Shown: positions 36,469 to 64,000 of the stretch, in pieces | Layout: the number at the start of each line of letters is the position of its first letter | Numbering within the stretch: position 1 is the stretch's first letter | Source of the DNA: Streptomyces virginiae | Lineage (GTDB): Bacteria; Actinomycetota; Actinomycetes; Streptomycetales; Streptomycetaceae | Reading direction: 5' to 3' | Assembly (NCBI RefSeq): GCF_000720455.1 | Contig: NZ_JOAK01000012.1 | Coordinates: 186,001-250,000, forward strand | Length of the DNA: 64,000 bases | Notes under the pieces: generated by a model | Told to the model about the DNA's origin: nothing | Seen by the model: the letters and a program-made list of their open reading frames with translations, nothing else | The model's database searches: none | Position numbers and translations under genes: made by a program

Positions 36469-38667
36469 TCAGCGGCCCGTGGCTCTGGGCCAGAAGGCGT
36501 CCAGCCAGACGAGGGTGTCCCGCATGACGTAGTGGTCGGCGTTCGGGCGCAGCGCGGAGAGCAGGAAGGAGCGTGCGCCCTCGGAGGGCACCCCGAGGAC
36601 GGTGAGCCGGGGGTCCGGGGTGCCGTCCGGGGCGACGGGGTGGAACTGCGGGGTCAGGTCGAGGCCGCCCGGCCGGAAGACCTCGCCGTCCGCCGACTCG
36701 TTGCACCACAGCCGCACCAGGCCCCGGTCGAGGAGGTTGCGGTAGAGCGGCAGGACGTCGAGCCGCGGGTCGAAGCCGTGCATGCGGGCCTCGACCAGGA
36801 CGTCGACGGGCCGGGACAGGCCGGTGTGCGGGCCTTCGACCACGGTCTTCCCGGTGGCCTCGTCGAGCCGGGCGCGCGCTCCCGGTCCGGCACCGACGTC
36901 GAGCAGCCCGCAGTCGACGAGGGCGGCCATCTTCGCCATGATCTCGGCCGCGGCCCCGTTCGCCAGCCGGTTGTGGTGGCGAACGTAGGTCCCCAGGAAG
37001 TGGCGCTGGGAGGCGGGGGTCAGGCCCGCGTGGTCCACGGCGTACGAGATGACGTGGCGCAGGTCGCGCCAGACGCCGTCGGCGGCGGCCTTGTGGGGGT
37101 TCCTCAGGTTGCCCTGCCGGGCCCACAGCTGGTCGCGGGCCATGAACGCGGCGACGGACGCGCGGAACTCCTCGGGCGAGGCGCCGGGCGGGACCGGTGA
37201 GACGGCGCGGTGCCAGTCGAAGCGGTTGCCGTGGAGGTAGGTCTCCAGCCCCCATGCGGAGTCGAGGGGGTCGGTGACCGGGCCGGGCGGCAGGGACCGG
37301 TCGACGCACCGGCGGACCTCGGCCTCGGCCGAGGGCCCGTACACGGTCCTCGTCCAGTGCAGCAGCACGTCGCGGACCGGCCAGGACACGGTGGCCTGGG
37401 CCCCGAACAGCGCGCACTTGCCGCGCAGTACGCCCTCCAGGACGTCGGCGATCTCGTCCACGGCGCGTTCCAGCGGGGCGGTCAGGGCGCCGGGCCCGTC
37501 GGCGGGCGTGCCGGTCACGAAGGCCAGGTAGCCGGGGAGCGCGCGCTGGGTCAGCAGCAGCGCGGCGGCGGGGCCGAAGAGGGTGACGTAGTGCAGGTGG
37601 GCCATCTCCAGGACGACCAGCGGCAGGAGGTCTCGTTCGAAGTCCAGCTGCCGGCGGCCGGTGGCGTCGCCGCCCGGCGGCCGGCCGGCGTGGGCGCGCA
37701 GCTGGTCGACGGCCTCGCGCGTCAGGAAGGTGCCGGGGTGGTCGCCGCCGCCGTCGCTGGGCTTGTGGTTGTCGGGGCGGGCGAAGGTGAACAGGCCGGA
37801 GCCGCTGAACGCCACGACGGCCGCGGGCTCCCGGCCGGAGGGCCGGTAGACCAGGCGCGGGCCGTCCTGGTGGAAGGTGCCGCCGCGGCCCTCGGTGAGG
37901 TGCAGGACCGTGTCGATGGCGGTGAGGCCCATGCCGGCGCAGCCGACGACCGTGTCCGGCCCGCAGCTGTCGGCGTCGAGCTCCTCCTCCAGCGGGTACG
38001 GGTGGGGTACGTGGCGGGTCGCGCCGCCGGCGGCCGGGCGGTCCGCGGCGGAGCGGCCCGGGTCGTGGTACGAGTGGCCCGTCAGCAGGAGCACCTCGTC
38101 GGCGGTGCGGCGGCCGCCGTCGGCGGTGACGACCTCCAGCCGGTCGCCGGCGGCGGGGGCGATGTCCACGACCTCGGCGTGGTGCAGGTGGAGTTCGGCG
38201 CCGGGGTGGCGGCGCAGGTCCGCGGCGAAGGCGTCGAACATGTCGCGCAGGGCCAGTCCGTGGACGTAGCGCTTGGGCCAGTCCTCGGGGCCGAGGTCGA
38301 AGTCCGGGTCGCCGGTCTCCTCGAAGCGGCGGCGGCACCACTGGTGCAGGGTGGGCCGCTCGGCGGGCGGGCGCAGCGGTCCGGCGCCGGTCACCGTCTC
38401 GTCGGCGGCGAAGCCCACCTGGGCGCCGATGCGGTTGAGGTAGCTGGTGCGTGCCTGGTCGGGGGCGTGCGCGCGGCCGGCGCCGAACGCGCCGGTGCGT
38501 TCGTAGAGGTGGACCTCCAGGCGGTGCCCCTCCCCCAGCCGGTCGATCGTCGCCGACAGCCGCTCCAGGGCGTACGTGGCCCTGGGCCCGCCACCCACCA
38601 CGGCGAGCCGGTAGGGCTCGGGCGTTGCCGCGGGTCGGCCGGATGCGTCAGCTCGGGGGGTGGTCAC
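36469..38667 (-). CDS. Large FAD/NAD(P)-binding protein, candidate N-oxygenase of the phosphonate pathway
   Basis: About 732 aa from GTG 38667 with GAGG upstream. N-terminal Rossmann motif LAVVGGGPRATYALERL (residues 21-37), then EVHLYERTGAFGAGRAH, a second NAD(P) motif VVGCAGMGLTAIDTVLHL and a helical C-terminal half (LETYLHGNRFDWH...HHNRLANGAAAEIMAKMAALVDCG...). This is the PF13454-type FAD/NAD(P) group. I recall CreE/FzmM-type enzymes, which N-hydroxylate aspartate in cremeomycin and fosfazinomycin, as having a similar layout. As last gene of the phosphonate operon it may oxidise AEP nitrogen or a derivative. The specific reaction is inference. Confidence 0.7.
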   Translation of the reverse strand: MTTPRADASGRPAATPEPYRLAVVGGGPRATYALERLSATIDRLGEGHRLEVHLYERTGAFGAGRAHAPDQARTSYLNRIGAQVGFAADETVTGAGPLRPPAERPTLHQWCRRRFEETGDPDFDLGPEDWPKRYVHGLALRDMFDAFAADLRRHPGAELHLHHAEVVDIAPAAGDRLEVVTADGGRRTADEVLLLTGHSYHDPGRSAADRPAAGGATRHVPHPYPLEEELDADSCGPDTVVGCAGMGLTAIDTVLHLTEGRGGTFHQDGPRLVYRPSGREPAAVVAFSGSGLFTFARPDNHKPSDGGGDHPGTFLTREAVDQLRAHAGRPPGGDATGRRQLDFERDLLPLVVLEMAHLHYVTLFGPAAALLLTQRALPGYLAFVTGTPADGPGALTAPLERAVDEIADVLEGVLRGKCALFGAQATVSWPVRDVLLHWTRTVYGPSAEAEVRRCVDRSLPPGPVTDPLDSAWGLETYLHGNRFDWHRAVSPVPPGASPEEFRASVAAFMARDQLWARQGNLRNPHKAAADGVWRDLRHVISYAVDHAGLTPASQRHFLGTYVRHHNRLANGAAAEIMAKMAALVDCGLLDVGAGPGARARLDEATGKTVVEGPHTGLSRPVDVLVEARMHGFDPRLDVLPLYRNLLDRGLVRLWCNESADGEVFRPGGLDLTPQFHPVAPDGTPDPRLTVLGVPSEGARSFLLSALRPNADHYVMRDTLVWLDAFWPRATGR

Positions 38668-38780
38668 GGGCACCTCATTCAGGGGTCGGAGGAGATCTGC
38701 CGGGGCGCGGGGCCGGCCGGCCCGTCGGTCGCGGGCGGTCCGGCCGCCGGCCGTCGGTGGCGGGCCGTCGGCCGAGGCGG

Positions 38781-39896
38781 TCAGCCGCGGGCCGTCAGGA
38801 TCCGGGTGAGCGCGGCGAGGAAGCGGTCGATGTCCCGCTGCGTCATCTGCCCCATCGTGGAGAGCCGGAAGAAGTCCGCCGCCAGCTGTTCCTGGGCGCT
38901 GTAGATGACGAAGCCCTCCGCGCGCAGCCCGCCGTGCAGCTCGGCGTAGCCGCAGCCGGCCGGGATGCGGACGGCGGTCAGGGAGGCGGCCCGCTGCTCC
39001 GGCGGGAGCAGGATCTCCAGGCCGAGCGTCTCCAGGCCGTCGCGCAGCCGCCGGGCGAGGGCGGTGTAGCGGGCGTGGCGGGCCTCCCAGCCTTCTGCGA
39101 GGGCCAGGTCGAGGGCGGCGTCGAAGGCGTAGAAGCCGGGGATGGCCGGGGTGAACGCGGGGGCCTGGGCCTTCTCCTGGGCGGCGTAGTGCCGGTGCAG
39201 GTCGAGGTAGTAGCCGCGGCGGGGGTGGCCCGCCAGGGCTTCGAAGGAGGTCCTGGCGGCGCTGACGAAGCCGAGGCCGGGGGCGCCTTCGAGGCACTTG
39301 TTGGCGGAGCCCGCCAGCCAGTCGACGCCGTCGGCGGCCAGGGAGATGCGTTCGGCGCCGATGCTGCTGACGGCGTCCACGACGACCTCGCGGCCGTGGG
39401 CGTGGGCGATCCGGGTCACGGCGGCGACGTCGTTGAGCATGCCGCTGCTGGTCTCGTGGTGGACCACGCCGACGTGGGTCAGGCCGGGGTCCGCGGCCAG
39501 CGCCCGGTCGACGGCGTCGAGGTCCACGGGCGTGGCCCAGCCCAGTTCGAGCCGGTGAGCGCGGATGCCGTGGGCGTCCGCGATGTGCCGGAACCGTTCG
39601 CCGTAGTGCCCGTTGTCGATGACCAGCAGGCCGCCGCCGTGGGGCACGGCCGAGCTGACGGCGGCCTCCACCGCGGCGGTGCCCGAGCCGGTGAGGACGA
39701 CGGAGGTGTGCCGCCCGTCGCCGCCCGCGGCGAGGGTGGTCTTGTGCCGGACGCGGGTGAGGAGGTCGGAGAACTCCGGCTCGCGGTGGCACATGTCGGG
39801 TCCGGCGAGCGCCGCGCGCACCCGGTCGTCGGTGATGACGGGGCCGGGGTTCATCAGGACGAGGCGCTCCGGGCGCGGCGCCGTGCTGTCGTTCAT
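38781..39896 (-). CDS. phnW: 2-aminoethylphosphonate transaminase (PhnW-like)
   Basis: 371 aa. Fold-type I aminotransferase class V. MNPGPVITDDRVRAAL and MCHREPEF match the N-terminus of AEP:pyruvate transaminases; LTGSGTAAVEA binds the cofactor phosphate, VVDAVSSIG holds the ring-contacting Asp, and SANKCLEGAPG places the PLP Lys at residue 200. In this direction it aminates phosphonoacetaldehyde to AEP. ATG 39896 overlaps the decarboxylase stop (ATGA). Its position behind pepM and ppd indicates biosynthesis, not phosphonate degradation. Confidence 0.92.
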   Translation of the reverse strand: MNDSTAPRPERLVLMNPGPVITDDRVRAALAGPDMCHREPEFSDLLTRVRHKTTLAAGGDGRHTSVVLTGSGTAAVEAAVSSAVPHGGGLLVIDNGHYGERFRHIADAHGIRAHRLELGWATPVDLDAVDRALAADPGLTHVGVVHHETSSGMLNDVAAVTRIAHAHGREVVVDAVSSIGAERISLAADGVDWLAGSANKCLEGAPGLGFVSAARTSFEALAGHPRRGYYLDLHRHYAAQEKAQAPAFTPAIPGFYAFDAALDLALAEGWEARHARYTALARRLRDGLETLGLEILLPPEQRAASLTAVRIPAGCGYAELHGGLRAEGFVIYSAQEQLAADFFRLSTMGQMTQRDIDRFLAALTRILTARG

Positions 39897-41017
39897 CGGG
39901 CGATCGCTTCCTTGAATCGGGCCGCCGAGGCGGGCGGGGCGAGGGCCGGGCGGCCGAGGTTCGGGTCCGATCCGGGGGCGATGCGGACGCGGACCAGGTG
40001 CGCGCCGCCGTCCTGTTGTGCGCGCAGGACGGCGGCGCGCAGGGCGTCGGCGTCGCGCACGTCGTGGGTGGACCGGTAGCCGCAGGCCGCGGCGATCCCC
40101 GCGAAGTCCACCCCGGCGGAGGCGGTGGGCTGCCCGCCGGTGGATTCGTAGGACTCGTTGTCCAGCAGGAGGTGGCACAGGTCGGTGCCGGAGTGGCGGC
40201 CGATGGTGGCCATGGCCTCCAGCCGCATCAGGGCCGCGCCGTCGCCGTCGAGTACGGCGACCCTGCGGTCGGGGGTGTTCAGGGCGACGCCGAGGGCCAC
40301 GCTGGAGGCGCAGCCCATGGAGCCGACGACGTACAGGTTCTGCGGGCGGTCCCAGTCGCGTTCCAGTTCCCGGGCCGTCTTGCCGGTGGTGGCGACGAGC
40401 AGGGTGTCGGGGTCCATGGCGGAGACGATGTGGCCGATCGCCTCGGCCCGCTTCATCAGCGGCGGGCCGGCGGCCGGGGCGGGGGCCGCGGCGGCGGCCT
40501 CGTAGGGGGCGACGGCCCCCTTGGGCACGATGAACGCGAAGGGCAGTCCGGTGGTGTCCATGTGCCCGGCGGCCACGTCGAGGCGCTCGGCGAGGAGCGC
40601 GGGGTCGTCGGGGAGCACCTCGTTGCGCACGCCCATGGACGTCAGCATGTCCTGGGTGATCCGGCCCATCAGCTCGTGCTGCGGCTCGTCGGGGCGGCCG
40701 GGGCGGCCGCGCCAGGTGACCAGGAGCAGGACCGGCAGGCGCAGGGTGTGGCAGAGGGAGGTCAGCGGGTTGACGGTGTTGCCGAGGCCGGAGTTCTGGA
40801 GGATGACCACCGGGCGGCGCCCGGCGAGGACGGCGCCGGCGGCCAGGGCCACGGCCTCGCCCTCGTTGGCCGCGATGACGTACTCCTGCGGGTGTTCGGC
40901 TTCCAGGCAGGAGATGACCGGGCCGAGGAAGGAGCAGGGCACGCCGGTGAACGGGCCGTGCCCGTGTTCCCTGAGCAGTTCGACCAGGGTGCGCGCCTGG
41001 AGGGCTCCGGTGCTCAC
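39893..41017 (-). CDS. ppd: Phosphonopyruvate decarboxylase
   Basis: 374 aa from GTG 41017, overlapping the pepM stop (GTGA). Thiamine-diphosphate enzyme of the Ppd family: N-terminal PYR domain with FTGVPCSFLGPVI, ANEGEAVALAAG and QNSGLGNTVNPLTSL, and PP domain with the ThDP motif LDGDGAALMRLEAMATIGRH...LDNESYESTGGQPT. It removes CO2 from phosphonopyruvate, making phosphonoacetaldehyde and pulling the unfavourable PepM reaction forward. Length and motifs are complete. Confidence 0.94.
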   Translation of the reverse strand: MSTGALQARTLVELLREHGHGPFTGVPCSFLGPVISCLEAEHPQEYVIAANEGEAVALAAGAVLAGRRPVVILQNSGLGNTVNPLTSLCHTLRLPVLLLVTWRGRPGRPDEPQHELMGRITQDMLTSMGVRNEVLPDDPALLAERLDVAAGHMDTTGLPFAFIVPKGAVAPYEAAAAAPAPAAGPPLMKRAEAIGHIVSAMDPDTLLVATTGKTARELERDWDRPQNLYVVGSMGCASSVALGVALNTPDRRVAVLDGDGAALMRLEAMATIGRHSGTDLCHLLLDNESYESTGGQPTASAGVDFAGIAAACGYRSTHDVRDADALRAAVLRAQQDGGAHLVRVRIAPGSDPNLGRPALAPPASAARFKEAIAR

Positions 41018-42609
41018 TGGCCGCCCTCCCGGGTGGCGAACAGCTCGGTGGCGCGGGCGATGTCCTGCGCGGTCCGCAGTTCCAGCCAGCCGGAGCCGAT
41101 CTCGACCGCGCCGACCCGGTGTCCGGCGGCGAGCAGGTCGGTGAGCAGGTCGGCCAGCGTGCCCTCGGTGCCGTCGGCGCGGCGCTTCTCGGCGACCTGG
41201 CGCAGTGCGGCGAAGCCCTGGGCGGAGAAGGCCGCGGCGCCGGCGAACTCGCCGTCCGCCTCGGGGCCGGCGACGGCGAGGACCTCGCTGCCGGAGGCGC
41301 CGCCGAGCCGGCGGCCGCCGCGGGCCGTGGAGTCCAGGGTCAGCGGCAGGGCGTCGGCGCGGCGCTCGACGCCGGGTCCGTCGGACACGTCGACGAGGAC
41401 GGCGATGTCGCCGCCCGCCGCGAGGAGGCGGCGCAGCGGCTCGCCCTCGACGAAGACGTCGCCGGAGACCAGCACGGTGCCGCTCAGGGCGTCGTCGTCC
41501 AGGGCGAGTACGGCGCCGGTGGCGTCGGCCTGGGCGGGCAGGAGCGTGACGTCCTGCGGGGCCCGTGCGGCGTCGTCGCCCGCGGTGGCGGACACCGACT
41601 CGATGTCCGCCCGGCGCAGTGCGGCGCTCTGCTCGGCGAGCAGGCCGGCGGCGGGGGCGGTGGGCCGGCCGGGGACCACGACGGCCCGGGCGCGGCCGGC
41701 GTACGGGGTGATGAACTCGGCCTCGTGGCGCTTCTGGAGGGGCATGCCCTGGAGGTCGAACACGGTGGACAGGGGGGCGATCCGGTCCTCGATGCCGGTG
41801 GTGCGGTCGTCGCGCAGGATCGAGGCGAAGGTCTCGGTGACGGCGGCGATGCCCGCGCGCAGACCGTGGTTGGCGTAGATGACCATCTTGGCGCCGGCTT
41901 CGGCCAGTTCGGTGGCGGTGATGGTGTGGTAAGTGGTGGGGACGACGACCACGGGGGTGGGCAGGGTCCAGCGTTCGAGGAAGCGCAGGACCGGCTCCGG
42001 GGAGGTGCCCTTGGCGTGGATCAGTACGGCGTCCGCGCCGGCGGCCGCGTAGGCCTCGCCGCGGCGCAGTGCCTCGTCCATGCCCCATCCCGCGATGAGG
42101 GCCTCGATCCGGGCGATGACCATGAGGTCCGGGGTGGTCTGGGCGGCCTTGGCGGCGCGCAGCTTGCCGCAGAACTCGGCGATGGGGGCCAGTTCCTGAC
42201 GGCCCGGGATGAAGCTGTTGACCTTCGGGAACCGCTTGTCCTCGATGGACACGCCGGCGATCCCGGCCGCCTCGTAGCGGCGGATCATGTTCATGACGTT
42301 GTGGGCGTTGCCGTAGCCGGCGTCGCAGTCGGCGACGACGGGGACGTCGACGGCGGCCGCCAACGAGGTGGCGGTGGCGAGGAGTTCGCTCATGGTCAGG
42401 ATGTCGGTGTCGGGGACGCCCTGGGAGGCGGAGACCTCCAGACCGCTCGACCAGACGCCGTCGAAGCCGGCCCGCTCGGCGAGGCGCGCACCGAGCGGGT
42501 TGTGCGCGCCGATGATGCGTACGGTGCCCGGGCGGGCGAAGAGGTCGCGGAGCTGCCGGGCTCCGGTCGTCCTGTGGTCCCCGCGTGCCTCTGTCGTCCC
42601 AGTAGTCAT
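41014..42609 (-). CDS. pepM: PEP mutase fused to a nucleotidyltransferase-like domain
   Basis: 531 aa from ATG 42609 with AGGAG upstream. Residues about 15-295 are phosphoenolpyruvate mutase: GAHNPLGARLAERAGFDGVWSSGLEVSAS, CDAGYG and the signature EDKRFPKVNS (123-132), the EDK-x5-NS pattern that separates PepM from isocitrate-lyase relatives. It forms the C-P bond of phosphonopyruvate. Residues about 300-531 look like a MobA/CTP-transferase fold (RARAVVVPG, LSGTVLVSGDVFVEGEPL, GWLELRTAQDIARATELF), but the usual Gly-rich nucleotide loop after the first strand is poor. Such fusions occur in pathways that activate phosphonates as CMP esters for attachment to lipids or glycans. Confidence 0.92.
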   Translation of the reverse strand: MTTGTTEARGDHRTTGARQLRDLFARPGTVRIIGAHNPLGARLAERAGFDGVWSSGLEVSASQGVPDTDILTMSELLATATSLAAAVDVPVVADCDAGYGNAHNVMNMIRRYEAAGIAGVSIEDKRFPKVNSFIPGRQELAPIAEFCGKLRAAKAAQTTPDLMVIARIEALIAGWGMDEALRRGEAYAAAGADAVLIHAKGTSPEPVLRFLERWTLPTPVVVVPTTYHTITATELAEAGAKMVIYANHGLRAGIAAVTETFASILRDDRTTGIEDRIAPLSTVFDLQGMPLQKRHEAEFITPYAGRARAVVVPGRPTAPAAGLLAEQSAALRRADIESVSATAGDDAARAPQDVTLLPAQADATGAVLALDDDALSGTVLVSGDVFVEGEPLRRLLAAGGDIAVLVDVSDGPGVERRADALPLTLDSTARGGRRLGGASGSEVLAVAGPEADGEFAGAAAFSAQGFAALRQVAEKRRADGTEGTLADLLTDLLAAGHRVGAVEIGSGWLELRTAQDIARATELFATREGGQ

Positions 42610-42678
42610 GCCGATTCTCCTGTTGTCCGCATTCGTGCGTGAGGGGGCGCAGCATCATCGGGGCGGCCCACATAATGC

Positions 42679-42692
42679 AATTGCCGGTAATT
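42679..42692. promoter_or_regulatory. AT-rich inverted repeat upstream of pepM
   Basis: AATTGCCGGTAATT, a 12-of-14 palindrome in a local AT-rich patch (42669-42700) about 70-85 bp upstream of the pepM start. Possible operator or internal promoter within the minus-strand operon. Confidence 0.35.
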
Positions 42693-42751
42693 CAAATTGG
42701 TCGGGGTGGAGGGAGGTGCCGGATATGCGGCCCGCGGCCCGCGGGACCCGG

Positions 42752-43426
42752 TCATACGGTGACGGCCGTGAATACCAGGCCGTCGGCCACCAGCCAGCGT
42801 CCGTCGAAATGCCGGACGGTGCGGCCGGCCACCTCGGGGCCGTCGACCAGGAGGCGGGCGTGGAACTCGCCGTCGGTGGTGGCCGGGCCAGGTTCCGGGT
42901 GGAACCGCAGTTCGGCCTGGGTGAAGTCGAGCCAGCGCCCGGTGAGCGGGAACCACGTCTTGTAGACGGACTCCTTGGCGCTGAAGAGGACCGTGTCCCA
43001 GTGCAGACCCGGCCTGGACCGGGCCAGCGTCCGGAGCCGGACGCGCTCGTGCGGGAGCGCCACCGCCTCCAGGACCCCCGGGGGGAGCGGGACGTGCGGT
43101 TCGGCGTCGATGCCGAGTCCCGTCAGATCGGTGGACCGGGCGGCGGCCGCCGCCCGGTAGCCGTCGCAGTGGGTGATGGCGCCGGCCACTCCCGGGGGCC
43201 ACAGCGGCTCTCCGGAGCCGCCCACGGGGACGGGCCCGGCGGGCACCCCCAGGTGGTCCAGTGCGCGGCGGGCGCAGAGCCGTCCGGTGGCGAAGGTCCG
43301 TCTGCGTCCTTCGGAGGCGCGCGCCACGGCCGCCCGTTCCACGGGGTGGAGGCGAAAGACGGCGCCGGGCGGGTCCGCGTACTCCGCCGAACTGGCCACG
43401 CACGCGGGCAGGATCCGCTCGATCAC
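42752..43426 (-). CDS. EntD/Sfp-superfamily 4'-phosphopantetheinyl transferase
   Basis: About 224 aa from GTG 43426, overlapping the exporter stop. Magnesium-site motif GIDAEP, and FSAKESVYKTWFPLTGRWLDF, the KEs...K signature of EntD-type PPTases. Substrate-side motifs include ATGRLCARRALDHLG and ITHCDGYRAAA. It converts apo-ACP to holo-ACP by attaching phosphopantetheine to the active Ser. The natural clients are the two discrete ACPs and the PKS ACP of this cluster, linking the phosphonate operon physically to the acyl-assembly operon. Confidence 0.92.
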   Translation of the reverse strand: MIERILPACVASSAEYADPPGAVFRLHPVERAAVARASEGRRRTFATGRLCARRALDHLGVPAGPVPVGGSGEPLWPPGVAGAITHCDGYRAAAAARSTDLTGLGIDAEPHVPLPPGVLEAVALPHERVRLRTLARSRPGLHWDTVLFSAKESVYKTWFPLTGRWLDFTQAELRFHPEPGPATTDGEFHARLLVDGPEVAGRTVRHFDGRWLVADGLVFTAVTV

Positions 43427-46022: not shown

Positions 46023-46251
46023 CGCTCTCTCCTCGTTTCGACTTCCGCAAAAGCCTAAACACGCTCCCTAAAAAGCTCCCTAAAGCCCGCCTTAACTTGC
46101 ACTCTCACCAGGACAAAACCCCTGCGGACAGAACTGTTTAGTGTCGTTTTAGCATGCCCCCGGTACGCTCGCCGTCGGCTTGGCAGGAAATCGCAATTTC
46201 CGGATCGTCGCCACTTTTTCGAGGAACTGGCCGCAATGATCCAGGAACGGG
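46023..46251. promoter_or_regulatory. Divergent promoter region of the cluster
   Basis: It separates the two main operons. An AT-rich stretch carries CCTAAAC, CCTAAAA, CCTAAAG and CCTTAAC starting at 46054, 46067, 46079 and 46090 (13, 12 and 11 bp apart), the later two parts of a GCTCCCTAAA direct repeat. Direct repeats at about one helical turn are typical of SARP-type activators. No regulator gene is in the visible cluster. Confidence 0.5.
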
Positions 46252-47061: not shown

Positions 47062-47064
47062 CCC

Positions 47065-49241: not shown

Positions 49242-49250
49242 GAGGTACGC

Positions 49251-50045: not shown

Positions 50046-50091
50046 CCCCTCCCCCGCACGACCCGCACACCCACCCCAGGAGAGAACGATC

Positions 50092-50358
50092 ATGCCCGAG
50101 CAGACCACCAGCGCCGCCGCCGTACTGGACACCGAGGACCTGCGCTCCACCATCGCGGAGATCCTGGACGTCGACCCCTCCGAGGTGACCGACACCGCCG
50201 ACTTCAAGGAGGACCTCGACGTCGACTCCCTGCTGGCGCTGGAGATCCTCGTCACCCTGGAGCGCAAGTACCAGGTGAAGATGGAGGAGTCGAACCTCCA
50301 GCTGATGCGGTCCTTCAAGGTCGTCCACGACCTGCTGGCCGAGAAGCTCGCCGCCTGA
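50092..50358 (+). CDS. Acyl carrier protein 1
   Basis: 88 aa. Four-helix ACP with phosphopantetheine Ser46 in DLDVDSLLALEIL. AGGAGAG ribosome site before ATG 50092. It carries growing chains for the two KS/CLF pairs, the ketoreductase and the enoyl reductase, after activation by the PPTase at 42752. Its TGA overlaps the next ATG (TGATG). Confidence 0.93.
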   Translation: MPEQTTSAAAVLDTEDLRSTIAEILDVDPSEVTDTADFKEDLDVDSLLALEILVTLERKYQVKMEESNLQLMRSFKVVHDLLAEKLAA

Positions 50359-56600: not shown

Positions 56601-59600
56601 CCCGACGGCGCCGACGGCTGGACCCGGCACATGACGGCGCACGCCTCCTACCGCGCCGAGCAGGCGGCCCCGCCGGTCTTCCCCACCGACCTGCTGAGGC
56701 AACCGGCCGTCGACGGGGCCTCGTTCTACCGCTCCTGCACCGCCCGCGGCCTGCGGTACGGCCCGGCCTTCCAGGGCGTCGGCGAACTGCGCGTGCACGG
56801 CGACGAGGCCCTCGGCCGGGTGACCCTGGCCGAGCAGTGCCGGCCCGGCGCCCGCCGGTTCGTCCTCCACCCGGCCCTGTGGGACGGGGCGTTCCAGGTC
56901 TCCCTCGCGCTGTGCGCCCACGAGGACACCGTGGTGCCCGTCGCGATCGAGCGGCTCGCGCTGCTGCCGGGGCGGCCCTCGGACCTGACCGAGCTGTGGG
57001 TGCACGCGGTGCGCCGCCCCGACGGGCACTTCGACCTGGCCCTGTACGGGCCGGACCGCCAGCCGGTGGCCCGCGTGAGCGGGCTGGAGCTGCGCCGCCT
57101 GCGCAGCGGCGAGCGGTCCGGGCCGGCCCCCGAGCGCGTGCACCGGTTCGGCTTCCACGAACGCCCGTACGCGGAACCGGCAGCCGGCGCGGAGCAGGGG
57201 CCCTGGCTGGTGTGCGGCCCGGACTCGGCCCGCACCACCGCCGTCGAACTGGCCGGCGCGCTCGGCGGGACCGCCGTGACGCTGCCGCGGGCCTGGGCCG
57301 ACGGGACACAGGCCTGGGCCGAGGCGTTGCGGGCCGCCGACGGCGGGGAGGTCGTGTTCGTCGCCCCGGACCGGGCGGCGGGCGAGGAGGAGCAGCGGGC
57401 GGGCCTGGAGGCACTCGGCGCGCTCGCCGGGGCCTGCGCGGACCGGCCCGTGGCGCCCCGCCTGACGGTGCTGACCACGCGGGCCCAGGCGGCGTCGGCC
57501 ACCGAGGCGCCCGATCCGGGAGCGGCCCTGTACTGGGGCTTCGTACGGGTGGTGCAGGGCGAGCACCCGGGGCTGGCGGCGCGGCTGGTGGACACCGCGG
57601 GTGACGACGGGTGGACGGCCGGCGTCGTGCGGGAACTGCTGGACGCCGAGCGCGAGGACCAGGTCCTCAGCCGCGGGGAGCGGCGCCTGGCGGGCCGGCT
57701 GGAGCGCGGCGGGCACCGCCCGGACGACTCCGCCGCGCCGCTGCCGTACACGGGCCGCCAGCCGTTCCGGCTGCACCCGGGCCCGCGGCCCGGACTGTGG
57801 GAGTCCCTGCGCTACCTGCCGCTGGTGCGCCGGCGGCCGGGGCCGGGCGAGATCGAGATCGAGGTGGACGCGGCCTCCCTCAACTTCATCGACGTGATGA
57901 AGGCCGTGGGCACCTACCCCGACGAGGCCGGCGGCAAGGAGCTGCTCGGCGGGGACTGCTCCGGCCGGGTCGTCTCGGTGGGCCCCGGCACGGCCGGGTT
58001 CCGCGTCGGCGACCGGGTGGTGGCGTGCGTCTTCGGCGCGATCGTCTCGCACGTGACCGTCCGCGCCGACCACGCACGGCCGGTGCCGGAGGAGATGACG
58101 CAGGAGGACGCCGCCGCGCTGCCGCTGGTCCTGGCGACCGCCTGGTACGCGCTGCACGACCTGGCCCGCACGGAGCCGGGCGAGACCGTCCTGGTCCACT
58201 CGGCGGCCGGCGGTCTGGGGCTGGCCGCCGTCCAGGTGGCCCGGATGCTGGGCGCCGAGGTCATCGCGACGGCGGGCAGCGCCGCCAAGCGCGCCTACCT
58301 GCGGGAACTGGGCGTCGAGCACGTCTTCGACTCGCGCGACCTGTCCTGGGCGGACGCCGTGCTGGAGCGCACGGGCGGCCGGGGCGTCGACGTCGTCCTC
58401 AACTCGCTGACCGGCGCCGCCATCGCGCGCGGCCTGGAGGTGCTCGCCGAGGACGGCCGGTTCGTCGAGGTCGGCAAGAAGGACATCCACGGCGAGCGCA
58501 CCCTGGGCCTCGCCCCCTTCCGCAAGGGCGTCAGCTTCGCGGCGGTGGACCTGGAGGGGCTCGTCATGCGGCGGCCCCAGCGGTTCGCCCGCCTCTTCCG
58601 CGCGGTCTGGGACGAGGTGGAGGCGGGCCGGCTCACGGCCCTGCCCGTCACCCAGTACACCTTCGACAACGCGGCCGAGGCGCTGCGGGCCATGTCGCAC
58701 GGCGACCACATCGGCAAGTTCGTGCTGTACGGACCGCAGAGCGTCGAGCGGGTGGTGGCGGACCCGCTGCCGTACGGCCGGTTCCGCGCCGACGGCACGT
58801 ACCTGATCACCGGCGGTCTGGGCGACCTCGGACTCTCCCTGGCCGAGCACCTGGTGGAGCGCGGGGCCACCGCCCTGGCCCTGCTGGGCCGTTCGGAGCC
58901 CTCCCCGCAGGCCGCGGACCGCCTCGCGGCGCTGCGCGCGGCCGGCGCACGGGTCTCGGTGGTGCACGCGGACGTCGCCGACGCCACCTCCCTGGACCTG
59001 GCGCTCGCCCGGGTGCGGGCCGAACTCCCTGCGCTGCGCGGCGTGTTCCACGCGGCGGGTGTCCTCTCCGACGCCGTCGTGCGCAACCTCGACGCGGCGG
59101 ACGTGGCCCGTGTGCTGGCGCCGAAGGTCGACGGCGCCGCCGAACTGGACCGGCTGACGGCGGACGATCCGCTGGACCTCTTCGTGCTGTTCTCCTCGGC
59201 CGCCGGTCTCGTCGGCAACGTCGGCCAGTCCGCCTACGCGGCGGCCAACACCTACATGGACGCGCTGGCCGTGGCCCGGCGGGCCGCGGGCCGGCCCGCC
59301 CTCAGCGTCCAGTGGGGCACCTTCGACGGCATCGGCCTGGCGGCCCGGTCCGCCGAGCGCGGCGAGCGCCTCGCGGACCGCGGCATGGACGGCTTCGAGG
59401 CCGCCGAGGCCTGGCGGGCGCTGGAGTCCTTCCTCGCGGACGGCGAGAGCGTCGTGGGGTACGTGGCCCTGGACCCGCGCCGCTGGTTCGAGACGTACCC
59501 GGCGGCGGCGGGCCTGCCCAGCTGGAGCCTGCTGCGCACGACGAGGGAGCCGGGCGCCGGCTCGGGCGGCGACTTCCGCCAGTTGCTGGGCGGCTGTCCC

Positions 59601-59858
59601 GAGGAGGAGCGGCACGCGGTGGTCGAGGAGCGCGTACGGCAGCTCGCCGGCCGGGTGCTGCGGCTGTCGGCTGACTCCATCGACCGTGAGACGCCGCTGA
59701 AGTCGCTCGGCCTGGACTCGCTGATGAGCCTGGAGCTGCGCAACCGGCTGGAGGCCGATCTGGGGCTGCGGCTGTCGCCGACGCTCCTGTGGACGTACGG
59801 GGCGCTGCGGCCGCTGGCCGGCGCGCTGGTGGAGCGGCTCGCGGAACAGGAGGCCTGA
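53625..59858 (+). CDS. Highly reducing type I PKS, one module KS-AT-DH-ER-KR-ACP
   Basis: 2077 aa from GTG 53625 behind GGAGG. KS: Cys172 (TLETGCSSSLV), His307 (VEAHGTGT), His348 (KTNIGHLEP). AT: VFPGQGSQW, Ser626 in GHSQGEIAAA, RVDIVQP and YASH (727-730), the methylmalonyl-CoA signature. DH: His923 (WLADHQVHDAVVVP) and Asp1087 (LWDGAFQ). ER: VLVHSAAGGLGLAAVQVARMLGAEV near 1526. KR: TGGLGDLG near 1727, Tyr1871 (SAYAAANTYMDAL), B-type-like LSD. ACP: Ser2032 (LGLDSLMSLE). No loading module or thioesterase. It probably adds one fully reduced methyl-branched unit, or acts iteratively, on a chain from the type II system. Confidence 0.93.
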   Translation: MHHDPAELIAIVGMAGRFPEAPDTDRFWDLLMDRGDAIRPIPSARWKTDQPLDPEKEIQGHGGFLEGIDEFDAAFFGVSPREAEVLDPQQRLMLETSWLALEDAGVPTASLSGTRTGVYFGGLWQDYERLREDRGARPTQHSISGNALDMLSARISYFLGLTGPSLTLETGCSSSLVALHLACQAIRAGDVDGALVGAANLMLTPDVTIGLTHFGGLSPKGRCSAFGAGADGFVRGEGVAAVYLKTLERARRDGDRVHAVIVRTASNNDGGGTSLVTPSLAGQEDLLRRVYTDSGIPVARVAYVEAHGTGTRAGDPVEATALGRVLGQAPERAGRPLGIGSVKTNIGHLEPVAALAGLFKAVLSLKNGVVPPSLHSAELNPDIPFGELGLEVVREPLALPADGGPVYLGVSSFGWGGTNAHAVITAAPPASGAADGAAPQDRGRAPFVLPLSAHSQAALVQRARDVREALDAPGADPREIAATLGWQRDQFPFRAGLVATDGDGLRAALDAYAADPEATSSGTVGGRARDRGRTAFVFPGQGSQWAAMGARLYAEDPAFAAVIDRCAAALAPHTDWSLTEVLTGRDGDAWMGRVDIVQPVLWAVSVALAAAWRTAGVEPDVVVGHSQGEIAAATVAGILSLEDAALVVARRSAVLLRTAAGTGRMLAVDLDADAATAALEGFEDCVALAVHNGPSSCVLSGDGDSVLLLKELLEADGTYCRLINVDYASHSPLMLDLTDELHEVLAPVRPGEGSIRLMSTVRAAELAGPEMDGSYWVENLCRPVRFAQALDALLDEGVTHVVEVSAHPVLVPALEQIGALRKEPPAVLGTLHRDRGAPEDLAESFAQGHVAGLTAYGPRPTSRDAGVPAYPWQRESYWVGAPQRGAGRSAAFAFPLVPLPTEAGTWHGTTEIGTGSHPWLADHQVHDAVVVPAAASIELCLGTAAARTGGVPQSLRGLSFLSDMTLADGGLHLGGVWREDAGEGAGLEVLSLPDGADGWTRHMTAHASYRAEQAAPPVFPTDLLRQPAVDGASFYRSCTARGLRYGPAFQGVGELRVHGDEALGRVTLAEQCRPGARRFVLHPALWDGAFQVSLALCAHEDTVVPVAIERLALLPGRPSDLTELWVHAVRRPDGHFDLALYGPDRQPVARVSGLELRRLRSGERSGPAPERVHRFGFHERPYAEPAAGAEQGPWLVCGPDSARTTAVELAGALGGTAVTLPRAWADGTQAWAEALRAADGGEVVFVAPDRAAGEEEQRAGLEALGALAGACADRPVAPRLTVLTTRAQAASATEAPDPGAALYWGFVRVVQGEHPGLAARLVDTAGDDGWTAGVVRELLDAEREDQVLSRGERRLAGRLERGGHRPDDSAAPLPYTGRQPFRLHPGPRPGLWESLRYLPLVRRRPGPGEIEIEVDAASLNFIDVMKAVGTYPDEAGGKELLGGDCSGRVVSVGPGTAGFRVGDRVVACVFGAIVSHVTVRADHARPVPEEMTQEDAAALPLVLATAWYALHDLARTEPGETVLVHSAAGGLGLAAVQVARMLGAEVIATAGSAAKRAYLRELGVEHVFDSRDLSWADAVLERTGGRGVDVVLNSLTGAAIARGLEVLAEDGRFVEVGKKDIHGERTLGLAPFRKGVSFAAVDLEGLVMRRPQRFARLFRAVWDEVEAGRLTALPVTQYTFDNAAEALRAMSHGDHIGKFVLYGPQSVERVVADPLPYGRFRADGTYLITGGLGDLGLSLAEHLVERGATALALLGRSEPSPQAADRLAALRAAGARVSVVHADVADATSLDLALARVRAELPALRGVFHAAGVLSDAVVRNLDAADVARVLAPKVDGAAELDRLTADDPLDLFVLFSSAAGLVGNVGQSAYAAANTYMDALAVARRAAGRPALSVQWGTFDGIGLAARSAERGERLADRGMDGFEAAEAWRALESFLADGESVVGYVALDPRRWFETYPAAAGLPSWSLLRTTREPGAGSGGDFRQLLGGCPEEERHAVVEERVRQLAGRVLRLSADSIDRETPLKSLGLDSLMSLELRNRLEADLGLRLSPTLLWTYGALRPLAGALVERLAEQEA

Positions 59859-59860
59859 CG

Positions 59861-61630
59861 GTGGAACAGGACAGCGGCAAGGCGGCGGGCACGGTCCGCG
59901 CCACCCCGGTCAGCCGGGCCATGGAGACGATCCGCGCCCTGCGCGAGGAGCTGGCGGCGCTGCGGGGCGCCCAGCCGGTCGCCGTGGTCGGCGTCGGCCT
60001 GCGGGCCCCCGGCGGCATCGAGGACCTCGACGGCTACTGGTCGGCGCTGGCGTCGGGGACGGACGCGGTGCGCCCGATCCCGCAGTCGCGGCGGGCCCCC
60101 TTCGGGGACGCCTGGGACGACGTGCCGCACCGGGGCGGGTTCCTGGACGAGGTGCTGGAGTTCGACGGACCGTTCTTCGGTGTCGCGCCCCGCGAGGGGC
60201 GCTCCCTGGACCCGCAGCACCGGTTGCTGCTCGAAGTGGTCTGGGAGGCCCTGGACGACGCCGGCATCCCCGCCGGCCGGGCGGCGGCGGCCGCGACGGG
60301 CCTGTACGTGGGCATCACCGGCCAGGACTACCGGGAGTGGATGAGCGAGGGGCCCGACTCGTACTGGGCCACCGGCAACGGGCACTGCTTCTCCGCCGGG
60401 CGGCTCGCGCACACGCTGGGCCTGACCGGCCCGGCCATGGCCGTGGACACGGCCTGCTCCTCCTCACTGGTGACGGTCCACCTGGCGCGGCAGGCGCTGC
60501 GCAGCGGCGAGTGCGACATCGCGGTGGCCGGCGGGGTGAACCTGGTGCTGTCACCGCACGGGACCGCGCTCGCGGCGCGCACGGGCGCCCTCTCCCCGGA
60601 CGGGGTGTGCCGTCCCTTCGACGCGCGGGCCAACGGCTTCACCCGTTCCGAGGGCTGCGGCATCGTGGTCCTCAAGCGGCTGGCGGACGCCGTGCGCGAC
60701 GGCGACCGGGTGCACGCGGTGATCCACGGTTCGGCGGTCAACCACGACGGTCGGGCCTCGGGCTTCACCGCGCCCAACGTGCTGGCGCAGACCCGGCTGG
60801 TGGAGCGGGCGCTGGCGGAGGCGGGCCTGGGCCCGGCCGACATCGGCCACGTGGAGGCCCACGGCACCGGTACCTCGCTGGGCGACCCGATCGAGGTGGA
60901 GGCGCTGGCGGCGGCCCTGGGCCGGCCGGGCGGCGCGGGTGCGCCGGTCCTGCTCGGCTCGGCCAAGGCGAACCTGGGCCACACGGAGTCGGCGGCGGGC
61001 GTGCTGGGCCTGATCAAGGCCGTGCTGAGCCTGCGGCACCGGGCGGTGCCGCCCGTACCGCACTTCACCACCCTGAACCCGCGCATCGACCTGTCGGGGA
61101 CGGGCTTTCGCATCCCGACCGAACTGGAGCCGTGGCCCGCCGGCGCCGGGGCGTACGCGGGCGTCAGTTCCTTCGGTATGAGCGGTACCAACGCGCACGT
61201 CGTGCTCGGCGCACCGGACCCGGTCGCGGAGCGGGCCGCGGGCCCGGTCGCGGCAGCCGCCGTCGCCGTGACCGGCTTCGAGGTGTCGGCCCGGACCCCG
61301 GCCGCGCTGCGGGCGTACGCGGCGCGGCTGGCCGCGCGCCTGGCCGGCATCAAGGACGAGGAGTACGCCTCCTTCGCCTACACCGTCACGCACGGCCGTA
61401 CGGCCCTGGCCACCCGCATCCGGGTCGAGGCCTGCGACCGGCACGCGGCGGCGGCCGCCCTGAACGCCGTCGCCGAGGGCCTGACCCCGCCGGCGGTGCG
61501 GGAGGTCGCGGCGGACACGGCCCCCGGGTTCGCGGACCTGCCCCGACGGGTCGTAGACCTGCCGGCGTACCCGTGGGAACGGCGGCGCTACGCCCCGTTC
61601 GACGCGGAGCGCCCGGCCGCGGGCGGCTGA
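59861..61630 (+). CDS. Stand-alone type I KS with excised AT
   Basis: 589 aa from GTG 59861, two bases after the PKS stop. N-terminal coiled-coil docking helix (SRAMETIRALREELAALRG), then a complete cis-type KS (Cys199 in VDTACSSSL, VEAHGTGTSLGDP, KANLGHTESAAGV). After TNAHVVLGAP comes the start of the KS-AT linker, then about 45 residues (EYASFAYTVTHGRTALATRIRVEAC...) that jump straight to the post-AT linker DLPAYPWERRRY near residue 570. The AT, including GHSxG, is absent. It may act on AT-less substrates, accept an in-trans acylated ACP (the ACP at 61706 is a candidate), or be a condensing/cyclising domain. Confidence 0.88.
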   Translation: MEQDSGKAAGTVRATPVSRAMETIRALREELAALRGAQPVAVVGVGLRAPGGIEDLDGYWSALASGTDAVRPIPQSRRAPFGDAWDDVPHRGGFLDEVLEFDGPFFGVAPREGRSLDPQHRLLLEVVWEALDDAGIPAGRAAAAATGLYVGITGQDYREWMSEGPDSYWATGNGHCFSAGRLAHTLGLTGPAMAVDTACSSSLVTVHLARQALRSGECDIAVAGGVNLVLSPHGTALAARTGALSPDGVCRPFDARANGFTRSEGCGIVVLKRLADAVRDGDRVHAVIHGSAVNHDGRASGFTAPNVLAQTRLVERALAEAGLGPADIGHVEAHGTGTSLGDPIEVEALAAALGRPGGAGAPVLLGSAKANLGHTESAAGVLGLIKAVLSLRHRAVPPVPHFTTLNPRIDLSGTGFRIPTELEPWPAGAGAYAGVSSFGMSGTNAHVVLGAPDPVAERAAGPVAAAAVAVTGFEVSARTPAALRAYAARLAARLAGIKDEEYASFAYTVTHGRTALATRIRVEACDRHAAAAALNAVAEGLTPPAVREVAADTAPGFADLPRRVVDLPAYPWERRRYAPFDAERPAAGG

Positions 61631-61649
61631 CCGGCCGCGGGTACGCGCA

Positions 61650-61685: not shown

Positions 61686-61705
61686 CCCTGCGCGGATCCG
61701 TCCGG

Positions 61706-61957
61706 TCAGGCCGCCGCCGCGTCCTGGATCAGGGCGACGACCGCAGCGACCGTGAGGTCCTTGGTCAGCGCCTCGAGGGGGACGTCGACGGCGAACTCGC
61801 GCTTGACGGACGCGGTGAGCTCGACGACGCCGAGCGAGTCGATCTCCAGCTCCTCCAGCCTGGCCTGGTCCGTGATCGCGTCGGGCTCCGCCCCGAAGTC
61901 GACGAGTTCGCGCTCGACGAAGGCACGGACGGAAGCAAGATCGGCGGGCTGGGGCAC
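61706..61957 (-). CDS. Acyl carrier protein 2
   Basis: 83 aa from GTG 61957 behind GAGGA; an ATG at 62008 would add a Cys-rich, unlikely leader. ACP with Ser41 in LEELEIDSLGVVELTASVKREF. It diverges from PlsC and is the only cluster gene right of 46 kb on the minus strand, so it has its own promoter. It resembles discrete ACPs that serve stand-alone tailoring steps, as in isonitrile lipopeptide pathways where an ACP carries the substrate for isonitrile installation. That link is inference. Confidence 0.85.
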   Translation of the reverse strand: MPQPADLASVRAFVERELVDFGAEPDAITDQARLEELEIDSLGVVELTASVKREFAVDVPLEALTKDLTVAAVVALIQDAAAA

Positions 61958-62145: not shown

Positions 62146-62853
62146 ATGCTCCGGATGCTGCTGAGGCGGCTTCTCCTCATTCCGCTCAGGCTCGTCCTGC
62201 GGCCCCGCGTCAGCGGCGTCGAGAACCTGCCGAAGTCCGGCCCCTTCATCATCGCGGCGAACCACTTGTCCTTTTTCGACTCGATATTCATCGCGCTGTT
62301 GGTCCCACGACACCTCTACTTCGTGGGCAAGCAGGGCTGGCTGGAGATGCCGGGCCTCAAGGGCCGGCTGCAGGGCCTGTTCTTCCGCTCCGTCGGGATG
62401 ATCTCCGTCGACAGCACGAGCGGCTCCGCGACCATGGCGGGCCTGGAGACCTCCCTGCGCATCATGCGCGAGGGGCACGGGGTCGGCGTGCACATCGAGG
62501 GCACCCGGTCGCCCGACGGCCGCCTGTACAAGGGGAACACGGGCACGGCGTGGATCGCGCTGCGGAGCGGGGCGCCGGTGGTCCCCTGCGGGCTGACCGG
62601 CACGGAGCGGGTGCACCCGGCCGGCGCCAAACGGCTCTACGTCTCCCGCTTCGACGTCCGCTTCGGCGCCCCCATGACCTTCCCCGAGCACGCCGGACGA
62701 GAGGACGACCGCCGCGTGCGCCGGACGGTCACGAATCGGATCACGCAGGAGATATCCGCTCTGACCGGCCAGGAGTACGTGGACACCTATGCCGCGACGG
62801 TCAAGAGTCGCGCGGCGGAATCCCGGGCCAAGGCGGCGGCAAGCACGGAATAA
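62146..62853 (+). CDS. PlsC-like 1-acyl-glycerol-3-phosphate acyltransferase family protein
   Basis: 235 aa. N-terminal membrane-associating helix (RRLLLIPLRLVLRP), motif I NHLSFFD (H-x4-D catalytic pair), motif II-like FFRSVGMISVDST, motif III HIEGTRSPDG and motif IV GAPVVPCGLTGTE. It transfers acyl groups from ACP or CoA to a hydroxyl, normally of lysophosphatidate. In this cluster it may attach the specialised acyl chain to a glycerol, phosphonate or other alcohol. AT-richer upstream region with its own start; separate transcript from ACP2. Confidence 0.9.
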   Translation: MLRMLLRRLLLIPLRLVLRPRVSGVENLPKSGPFIIAANHLSFFDSIFIALLVPRHLYFVGKQGWLEMPGLKGRLQGLFFRSVGMISVDSTSGSATMAGLETSLRIMREGHGVGVHIEGTRSPDGRLYKGNTGTAWIALRSGAPVVPCGLTGTERVHPAGAKRLYVSRFDVRFGAPMTFPEHAGREDDRRVRRTVTNRITQEISALTGQEYVDTYAATVKSRAAESRAKAAASTE

Positions 62854-62918
62854 GAAGGGCTTTAGCCCCCGCCGATAGTTTCGTTCCGAGCGCGACTTGA
62901 CCACCGAGAGAGGTTCTC

Positions 62919-63809
62919 GTGAAGATTCTCCGCCAGGAAGACAAGAAGTTCGGCGTAACCGTCGAGGAATTCGATCTCAACACCGCCACGGAAGCGGATT
63001 TCGAAGAGATCAAGAACCGCGTCTACAGCGACAAGATCGTCGTGCTGCGCAACCAGCACCTCTCCTCCCCGGAATTCGCCGAGCTCGGCCGCCGCCTCGG
63101 CACCGTGGAGACGTACTACGAGCCCATGTACCAGCACCCGGAGGTCTCCGAGATCTTCGTGTCCTCGAACGTGGCGAGCTCGGACGGCACCCAGGTCGGC
63201 GTCCCGAAGACCGGCAAGTTCTGGCACGCGGACTACCAGTTCATGCCGAACCCCTTCGGCCTGACGCTCATCTACCCGCAGGTCGTCCCCAAGAAGAACC
63301 GCGGCACCTTCTTCATCGACATGGGCCGCGCCTACGAGGGCCTGTCCGACGAGCTGAAGCACGCCGTCGAGGGCACCCGCGCGGTCCAGAACGTCAGCCG
63401 CTACTTCAAGATCCGCCCCGAGGACGTCTACCGCCCCGTCGGCGAACTGGTCGACGAGATCCAGGCCAAGACGCCCCCGTCGCCCCACCCGACCGCCTTC
63501 AAGCACCCCGCCACCGGCGAGACCGTCCTCTACATCAGCGAGGGCTTCACCACCGGTCTGATCGACGCGGACGGCAACGCGCTGGACAAGTCCCTGCTGA
63601 CCGCCCTCCTGGAGGCGAGCGGCCAGCTGGACGACACGTTCGAGCACGAGAACATCCACCTGCAGACCTTCGAGCAGGGCGACCTCCTCGTCTGGGACAA
63701 CCGCAGCCTCGTCCACCGGGCCCTGCACACCGCCACTCCGGAGCCCGCCGTCTCGCACCGAGTGACCGTGTACGACCAGTACCCCTTCTACGAGGGCCTC
63801 GGCGCCTGA
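62919..63809 (+). CDS. ScoE-like isonitrile-forming Fe(II)/2-oxoglutarate dioxygenase
   Basis: 296 aa from GTG 62919 behind GAGAGAGG. TauD/TfdA fold. Metal ligands His103 and Asp105 ([11 protein letters not shown]) and His266 ([11 protein letters not shown]), 2-oxoglutarate Arg281 (SHRVTVYD). Long stretches recall ScoE from the S. coeruleorubidus isonitrile lipopeptide pathway, including [34 protein letters not shown] and [13 protein letters not shown]. ScoE, SfaA-type and Rv0097 enzymes oxidatively decarboxylate N-carboxymethyl-3-aminoacyl substrates to isonitriles. Substrate-contact tyrosines of the YYEPMY segment are kept. I infer isonitrile formation; the amine substrate here could differ. 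Confidence 0.88.
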
Positions 63810-63863
63810 CGCGGTACGCGCTCCCGCCGGCCCCCCACGAGTTCCGCTCTACAGAGGTGAAGA

Positions 63864-64000
63864 ATGACCGCTCCCCAGTGCCCGGTTGCCCATGAGGTGT
63901 TCGACCAGCAGTACATGCGCGACCCCTACGGGACCTACGCGTCCCTGCACGAGAAGGGGCCCGTCCACCGCATCATGACCCCCGAGGGCTTCCCGGCCTG
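63864..64000 (+). CDS. Cytochrome P450 (5' end, cut by window edge)
   Basis: The first 45 codons from ATG 63864 (AGAGGTGA upstream) read CPVAHEVFDQQYMRDPYGTYASLHEKGPVHRI plus further residues, the typical N-terminus of soluble actinobacterial P450s (DPYxxYxxLRxxGPVxR). The heme-binding Cys region lies outside the window. It starts 54 bp after the ScoE-like gene and is probably in the same operon, as a further oxidative tailoring enzyme. Confidence 0.75.
   Translation, partial: MTAPQCPVAHEVFDQQYMRDPYGTYASLHEKGPVHRIMTPEGFPA

Follow-up and report, generated by a model that had tools for sequence, protein, structure and literature searches.

A Streptomyces virginiae locus joining phosphonate and isonitrile genes, probably as two separable but linked pathways

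The locus described here begins in a 64,000-nt stretch of Streptomyces virginiae contig NZ_JOAK01000012.1 (positions 186,001-250,000; genome 8.3 Mb), which we call the window. Among proteins with a species name, the closest to those encoded here (96% and 98%) come from S. virginiae. It spans 51 kb (36469-87585 in window numbering) and is divisible into module A, which carries phosphonate and lipid genes, and module B, which carries isonitrile polyketide genes. Taken singly, both halves belong to known kinds. We consider it probable (about 0.6) that the locus unites, as a supercluster, two separable pathways that selection holds together, with module A giving a lipid of 2-aminoethylphosphonate (AEP), module B giving a FabH inhibitor and the two products acting jointly. 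Two products are favoured over one hybrid because the modules are separable and yet adjoin each other in eight genomes, drawn from two families. An earlier note on the window had read it as a single pathway, which we judge less probable than a linked pair of pathways because the halves can part.

Gene assignments come from gene calling and Pfam/NCBIfam profile scans of the window and of 56 kb of contig to its right, where positions above 64000 continue the window numbering. All of the genes that the earlier note named at 36469-64000 are present, and phosphonate, reduced-polyketide and isonitrile genes are co-located as it described. Extension to the right of 64 kb completes the isonitrile half 1-23 kb past the window end with scoD, an acyl carrier protein (ACP), two polyketide synthases (PKSs), a ketosynthase (KS), a ligase, a thioesterase (TE), FabH and a Streptomyces antibiotic regulatory protein (SARP). 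This half is stronger than is visible from the window alone.

The separability of the modules is directly observed in other genomes, compared by DNA alignment and by tblastn maps that exclude matches covering less than 40% of the query unless they are long. NRRL F-2664 matches window positions 36473-87938 at 91%. NRRL F-2580 DNA is collinear with 28001-62811 at 86-90% identity (the positions are BLAST alignment ends), and it has 84 bp in place of the 22.2 kb of the window that runs from scoE to PKS3. Its TE and SARP align, 20 bp replace the FabH gene (964 bp), and its whole genome has no match to ScoE, the isonitrile-forming oxygenase of module B, at E ≤ 1e-80. Streptomyces sp. G157 has a SARP, a β-ketoacyl-ACP synthase III (KASIII, the FabH type), ScoE, a P450, ScoD, an ACP, PKS2, KS4, a ligase, a hydrolase and PKS3 at 50-78% identity. 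No phosphonate genes were found in 120 kb there, and G157 is outside the 11 genomes with FADox, the flavin N-oxygenase of module A, at E ≤ 1e-90. These patterns define module B as FabH plus the scoE-to-PKS3 block and module A as the rest.

Complete A without B occurs in F-2580, G506 and G392 (a genome only 55% complete), and complete B without A occurs in G157. The phosphonate half also lacks scoE in S-1022, CB03234 and others, and no phosphonate genes were found in the stretches read of the isonitrile-PKS loci G157, G134, G104, G072 and G049, none of which is among the 11 FADox genomes. The earlier note had held that halves occurring alone would tell against a single pathway, and this is borne out in part, as both A without scoE and B without phosphonate genes exist. 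Its arguments from a shared promoter and from a phosphopantetheinyl transferase (PPTase) inside the phosphonate operon do not hold up. The promoter joins that operon to the KS and chain length factor (CLF) genes of module A and not to the isonitrile genes, and the PPTase is not conserved (at least 67% identity only in F-2664, F-2580, G506 and G392). The note's other suggestion, two adjacent clusters, is too weak for halves that recur side by side in two families, in eight genomes altogether.

The linkage is recurrent. In eight genomes (the window genome included) no more than 40 kb separates modules A and B, and the arrangement takes several forms. A contig scan with FADox gave 19 loci in 18 genomes, and in 12 of the 19 a fatty-acid hydroxylase (FAH) gene adjoins the phosphonate genes (FAH-type). 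ScoE is above its cut-off in 5/18 of these genomes, all among the 12 FAH-type and all on the FADox contig, at distances from FADox of 24 kb (F-2664), 28 kb (S. capoamus), 38 kb (S. ardesiacus), 12 kb (Nucisporomicrobium flavum) and 146 bp (JH14). It is absent at E ≤ 1e-80 from the other 7/12 FAH-type genomes, and none was found in G499. Eight further FADox-bearing genomes also gave none (0/8; three repeat named strains and one is 55% complete), in a scan that had no positive in itself, although the same ScoE model gave matches in other scans. Among 300 genomes of the Nucisporomicrobium family, which we take to be the Micromonosporaceae, three have module A and nine have ScoE, and all three A genomes carry ScoE about 12 kb from FADox. 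The Streptomyces genus sample has ScoE above cut-off in 24/295 genomes and FADox at E ≤ 1e-90 in 11/295. Fisher tests that leave out the window genome and ignore relatedness give p = 6e-4 for the Nucisporomicrobium family, 0.28 for Streptomyces and 0.0023 combined.

Two quick trees with single-method support bear on how the pairing arose. On the FADox+PhnW+Ppd tree (18 module A rows and 5 others) the A+B label needs five changes, at least four of them forced by well-supported branches, against a shuffled mean of 5.2, so the label is not clustered. On the ScoE+ScoD+PKS2 tree (11 rows) it needs two changes, and in a subclade of seven that share this type of B (support 92), all but G157 carry A. 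G714, G756 and G499 are outside both trees, and Kocuria is in neither for want of a FADox gene call of sufficient cover. The changes on both trees imply that B was gained or lost repeatedly beside A and that this kind of B mostly occurs with A. That the halves are unrelated clusters made neighbours by chance, through shared integration hot-spots or common descent, is quite unlikely. Each half does occur alone, the Streptomyces association is not significant and actinobacterial clusters often pile up. However, the same pair recurs in varied arrangements in two families and at no more than 40 kb in all eight genomes, genomes with both modules are mixed on the A tree with those that have A only, so that the pairing must have arisen or been lost repeatedly, and A accompanies six of the seven members of one B subclade. 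The co-location that the earlier note saw does not look accidental.

The leftward genes of module A begin with those for the head group:
36469-38667, minus strand: FADox, FAD/NADPH N-oxygenase of the FzmM/PcxL family (732 aa from GTG at 38667)
38781-39896, minus strand: PhnW, 2-aminoethylphosphonate aminotransferase (TIGR03301 363.4 against a cut-off of 360.8)
39893-41017, minus strand: Ppd, phosphonopyruvate decarboxylase (TIGR03297 399.5 against a cut-off of 312.5)
41014-42609, minus strand: PepM, PEP mutase with a C-terminal domain (PF13714 E 2e-61; EDK-x5-NS at residue 123)
42752-43426, minus strand: PPTase of Sfp/Npt type (Pfam/NCBIfam; confined to close relatives)
43423-45072, minus strand: TcmA-like major facilitator superfamily (MFS) exporter (Pfam/NCBIfam)
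45069-46022, minus strand: FAH, weakly OlsE-like (PF04116 E 5.8e-26; OlsE 55.4 against a cut-off of 475)

The PepM, Ppd and PhnW families are the established route to AEP, and the window holds the complete set with the catalytic motif. The PepM signature reported by the earlier note is there as EDKRFPKVNS. Over its mutase domain PepM shares 77% identity with the solved enzyme of Streptomyces platensis (5unc), and its score of 310.6 is 9 bits short of the PEP_mutase NCBIfam cut-off (319.6). PepM is long (480-533 aa) in eight of the 12 FAH-type loci and short (294-325 aa) in four. Its residues 300-531 (window 41014-41712), about 230 aa, make up a C-terminal domain for which Pfam has no matching family. 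Alternating strands and helices in the predicted secondary structure prompted a comparison with nucleotidyltransferases, and the idea was dropped without sequence support; searches with the domain gave a single sugar-phosphate nucleotidyltransferase match (E 0.97), and the best 50 Foldseek matches listed for the PepM model are to the mutase domain only.

FADox likely oxidises the nitrogen of AEP, to a hydroxylamine or an oxime. Its start is probably at 38667 rather than 38601, and an S. virginiae homologue is likewise 732 aa long. The closest PDB match, by sequence and by fold (model pLDDT 85.6, 710-aa form), is FzmM, an aspartate N-hydroxylase whose relative PcxL converts AEP to an oxime, according to the available part of PMC10404684. 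FADox retains the FzmM-type FAD/NADPH fold and the catalytic arginine cluster, but the aspartate-binding residues R276, N413 and R416 of FzmM are D, H and S, which rules out an aspartate N-hydroxylase. At the position of FzmM V571 it natively has F, and the same part of that source reports that V571F raises the aspartate KM of FzmM to >4000 uM. PhnW stands directly before FADox in 18/19 loci, and 8 of 120 FADox homologues among the matches listed are fused to PepM. The family match, the lost aspartate-gripping residues, the native phenylalanine and these fusions together argue for AEP as the substrate. The fusion proteins themselves (P0073, P0074, P0081, P0082, P0088, P0092, P0114 and P0120, two of them from Solirubrobacterales metagenome-assembled genomes) are possibly a distinct, so far unstudied family for aminophosphonate N-oxidation.

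Rightward, module A continues with a promoter region and lipid and polyketide genes:
46023-46257, no strand: divergent promoter region with CCTAAA/TTTTAG repeats (seven-genome alignment)
46258-47061, plus strand: alpha/beta hydrolase (PF12697)
47095-49241, plus strand: KS1 (47095-48273) and CLF1 (48285-49241) (profile matches, motifs)
49251-51104, plus strand: short-chain dehydrogenase/reductase (SDR, 49251-50045), ACP1 (50092-50358) and FabG-like ketoreductase (KR, 50358-51104) (profile matches)
51117-53527, plus strand: KS2 (51117-52346) and CLF2 (52343-53527) (profile matches)
53625-61630, plus strand: PKS1 (53625-59858), with KS, acyltransferase (AT, motif YASH), dehydratase (DH), enoyl reductase (ER), KR and ACP domains, and free KS3 (59861-61630) (profiles, motifs)
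61706-61957, minus strand: ACPx, a small convergent ACP (PF00550)
62146-62853, plus strand: PlsC-type acyltransferase (PF01553 E 1.2e-21), the last gene of the F-2580-like block

The PlsC and FAH genes, the KS/CLF pairs and the AT motif of PKS1, presumably of methylmalonyl type, point to a branched lipid as the tail of the module A product. The two KS/CLF pairs, SDRs, ACP, reducing PKS, PlsC and P450 are all there. The gene that the earlier note called an ER is the SDR at 49251-50045, but the enoyl-reductase call is weak (best FabL model 128 against a cut-off of 328). A cispentacin AmcF-like identity for KS1 and KS2 was rejected, as the matches are below the AmcF model cut-off. ACPx has a counterpart in F-2664, F-2580, S. 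capoamus, G506 and G392. A protein of 174-187 aa without a Pfam match adjoins the SDR of module A in G714 (L162:9011-9535) and JH14 (L067:2911-3474). The CCTAAA/TTTTAG repeats, seen in most of the seven aligned genomes and absent from the S. capoamus row, are candidate SARP binding sites. In a SARP-box scan without background control, repeats of the 7-mer-N4 kind were confined to the 937 bp upstream of the SARP gene, and scanning 42600-46300 for promoters and terminators gave no match.

The remaining genes are those of module B, with the TE and SARP of module A at the far end:
62919-63809, plus strand: ScoE, isonitrile-forming Fe/2-oxoglutarate oxygenase (NF049937 498.5 against 400; 6dch E 2e-127)
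63864-65060 (window part to 64000), plus strand: cytochrome P450 (PF00067, haem motif)
65063-65590, plus strand: ScoD/FcoT (Pfam FcoT 211.7 against 27; ScoD NCBIfam model 233.5 against 250)
65587-65982, plus strand: ACP2 (above Pfam cut-off)
66037-72489, plus strand: PKS2 (Pfam)
72494-73945, plus strand: KS4 (Pfam; 98% identical to an S. virginiae protein)
73936-75534, plus strand: acyl ligase (AMP-binding, above Pfam cut-off)
75608-76447, plus strand: alpha/beta hydrolase beyond the window (Pfam)
76513-84936, plus strand: PKS3 (Pfam, motifs)
84993-85751, minus strand: type II TE (Pfam)
85766-86704, minus strand: FabH (KASIII) (Pfam)
86785-87585, minus strand: SARP (Pfam)

Module B is probably an isonitrile pathway of the amycomicin/aerocyanidin type. 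The ScoE-like oxygenase of the earlier note is confirmed by its ScoE score and by its match to solved ScoE (6dch), which also rule out a misnamed taurine dioxygenase, and the motifs HADYQ and VHRALH are present. An FcoT-type glycyltransferase-thioesterase, an ACP and an acyl ligase, the members expected of an isonitrile-polyketide pathway, are all there. The Pfam lists of the module B proteins contain no condensation domains, and PKS2, KS4 and PKS3 elongate instead of a nonribosomal peptide synthetase (NRPS). PKS3 begins with a KSQ loading module, in which the AT motif is YASH, and continues with KS-AT(HAFH)-DH-KR-ACP. This architecture predicts 2-pentenoyl-ACP as its product, which would suit ScoD and ScoE as a substrate. 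The stretches read for JH14 and S. ardesiacus gave no match to PKS3, and these two may use a different starter. Because 62919-86704 holds one P450, against three expected for amycomicin, a product other than amycomicin itself is expected. Between the modules, G714 (L161:16677-19247) and G756 (L167:1874-4351) have an AprA MT2-like methyltransferase, perhaps for a branched starter. The S. ardesiacus supercluster has an EPSP-synthase-like enolpyruvyl transferase fused to an AMP-binding domain (L051:15332-18367), followed by an acyl-CoA dehydrogenase.

The bounds of the locus, 36469 to about 87.6 kb, are set by secreted-looking genes on the left (M6 peptidase-like, GDSL/golvesin) and by PKD, phosphoesterase and MMPL genes on the right. 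One left-flank gene (31737-35861) encodes a secreted-looking protein of 1374 aa with golvesin and GDSL-like domains that occurs in F-2580 and was not found in F-2664.

The FabH of the cluster is one of three FabH-type genes found by a genome search. It is 70% identical to a stand-alone copy and 42% identical to the housekeeping copy in fabD-fabH-acpP-fabF, and it retains the Cys-His-Asn triad. A FabH of at least about 60% identity is present in 7/9 loci with this type of B; of the exceptions, the N. flavum contig ends short of that point and G714 is covered only up to PKS3. S-1022, CB03234 and B-1140 have only KAS IIIs of 41-47%. Because amycomicin targets FabH (PMC13273461), the simplest reading is that the cluster FabH would be a self-resistance copy against a FabH-inhibiting product of module B.

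The products, N-oxidation, resistance and joint action that we infer would arise as follows. In module A, PepM, Ppd and PhnW would form AEP, and the FzmM/PcxL-type flavoenzyme would oxidise its nitrogen to a hydroxylamine or oxime. The KS/CLF and PKS1 enzymes would assemble a chain that is reduced and probably methyl-branched. PlsC and/or the alpha/beta hydrolase would then couple chain to head, a mode of joining that we also infer, FAH would hydroxylate and the MFS pump would export the product, an N-oxidised aminoethylphosphonate lipid. In module B, PKS3 would supply a short 2-enoyl-ACP (predicted to be 2-pentenoyl), ScoD would add glycine and release the chain, and ScoE would convert it to an isonitrile acid. 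The ligase would load this acid onto ACP2 for elongation by PKS2 and KS4 and oxidation by the P450. The result would be an amycomicin/aerocyanidin-like FabH inhibitor from which the spare FabH would shield the producer, and both products would probably act jointly on bacterial lipid synthesis.

Several points weigh against this reading. The association of A and B is significant in one of the two genome samples, by tests that ignore relatedness, and the Streptomyces sample alone does not reach significance. ScoD falls below the narrower of its two cut-offs, and the synergy of two products is conjecture. The cluster FabH could instead prime a chain. Such a starter-unit role would suit its intact triad, the frequency of KAS III starters in polyketide clusters and the A-only genome G261, which keeps the FabH gene (82%) without ScoE. 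It is possible but the less probable role, as PKS3 already has a KSQ loading module, the presence of the gene tracks that of the isonitrile block across F-2580, F-2664 and the window genome, G157 has the two together, and FabH is the reported target of amycomicin.

The compact arrangement in JH14, where both halves form one long co-directional run across the 146-bp gap between FADox and ScoE, also counts against two separate products. No clear KS1, CLF1 or PKS1 counterpart was found in the stretches read of JH14 and the Nucisporomicrobium family, so their A chain would come from elsewhere, possibly from the PKS of B. This run and the missing A-type PKS keep alive a single hybrid, in which the isonitrile polyketide of B is joined to the N-oxidised AEP head of A and one-module genomes make truncated or different relatives. 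Co-location in eight genomes and the place of the module B KASIII in the window genome, between the TE and SARP of module A, would also fit. We nevertheless regard the hybrid as rather improbable, since each module is found complete without the other, B is equipped with a ligase, a release step and tailoring of its own, and A-only genomes retain the head-group genes. Slightly more doubtful still is its specific form, one isonitrile-headed N-oxidised phosphonate lipid that would be the first product to unite a C-P bond with an isonitrile, with one-module genomes as derived remnants.

The favoured pair of pathways has parallels on both sides. For amycomicin and aerocyanidin, Zheng et al. 2024 reportedly describe a ScoE-type oxygenase, a bifunctional thioesterase, a ligase, an ACP and a PKS in the same order of steps as proposed here for B; module B shares these components, a likeness drawn from descriptions rather than sequences. 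Aerocyanidin comes from Chromobacterium and amycomicin from Amycolatopsis sp. AA4. Unlike the amycomicin pathway, the present locus has one P450 in place of three, a PKS3 of two modules that is loaded through KSQ, a spare FabH and an adjoining phosphonate cluster. Isonitrile lipopeptides of the SF2768/Sco type use ScoE, ScoD, an ACP, a ligase and an NRPS; the first four are common to module B, and a type I PKS replaces the NRPS. Antibiotic superclusters such as that for cephamycin and clavulanate keep two adjoining pathways linked, as seems to be so here for a phosphonate and an isonitrile.

On the phosphonate side, the phosphonocystoximate (PcxL/HpxL) and fosfazinomycin (FzmM) pathways use flavin N-oxygenases that belong to the fold family of FADox, which here adjoins PhnW. 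The available part of PMC10404684 has PcxL acting on AEP, and the likeness of FADox to PcxL is known from family and gene context. In contrast to the FzmM and PcxL pathways, lipid enzymes and KS/CLF surround FADox, and the aspartate-binding residues of FzmM are replaced. For amycomicin, AmcQ, AmcB and three P450s have been named and the pathway order partly given (PMC13273461). The 'amycomicin' cluster of S. virginiae THA-960, assigned by accurate mass only (PMC13273461), is probably the same module B; the 98% match of KS4 is to an S. virginiae protein, possibly from a strain other than THA-960. In JH14, the 'amycomicin' cluster (PMC10037901) is a module B beside a module A. The word 'phosphonate' is absent from the main texts of both papers, so the paired half apparently went unnoticed. 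In the literature searched, which covers the field in part and is no proof of novelty, we found no report of a phosphonate paired with an isonitrile.

If the two-pathway reading is true, S. virginiae-like strains studied as amycomicin producers hold an overlooked phosphonate partner pathway. It would also tie aminophosphonate N-oxygenases to lipid enzymes, a setting that differs from that of the phosphonocystoximate N-oxygenase. A FabH inhibitor and a phosphonate lipid would then have been paired repeatedly in nature, as a testable natural drug combination against bacterial lipid synthesis, and F-2580 (A only) and F-2664 (A and B) offer a natural experiment that is already at hand.

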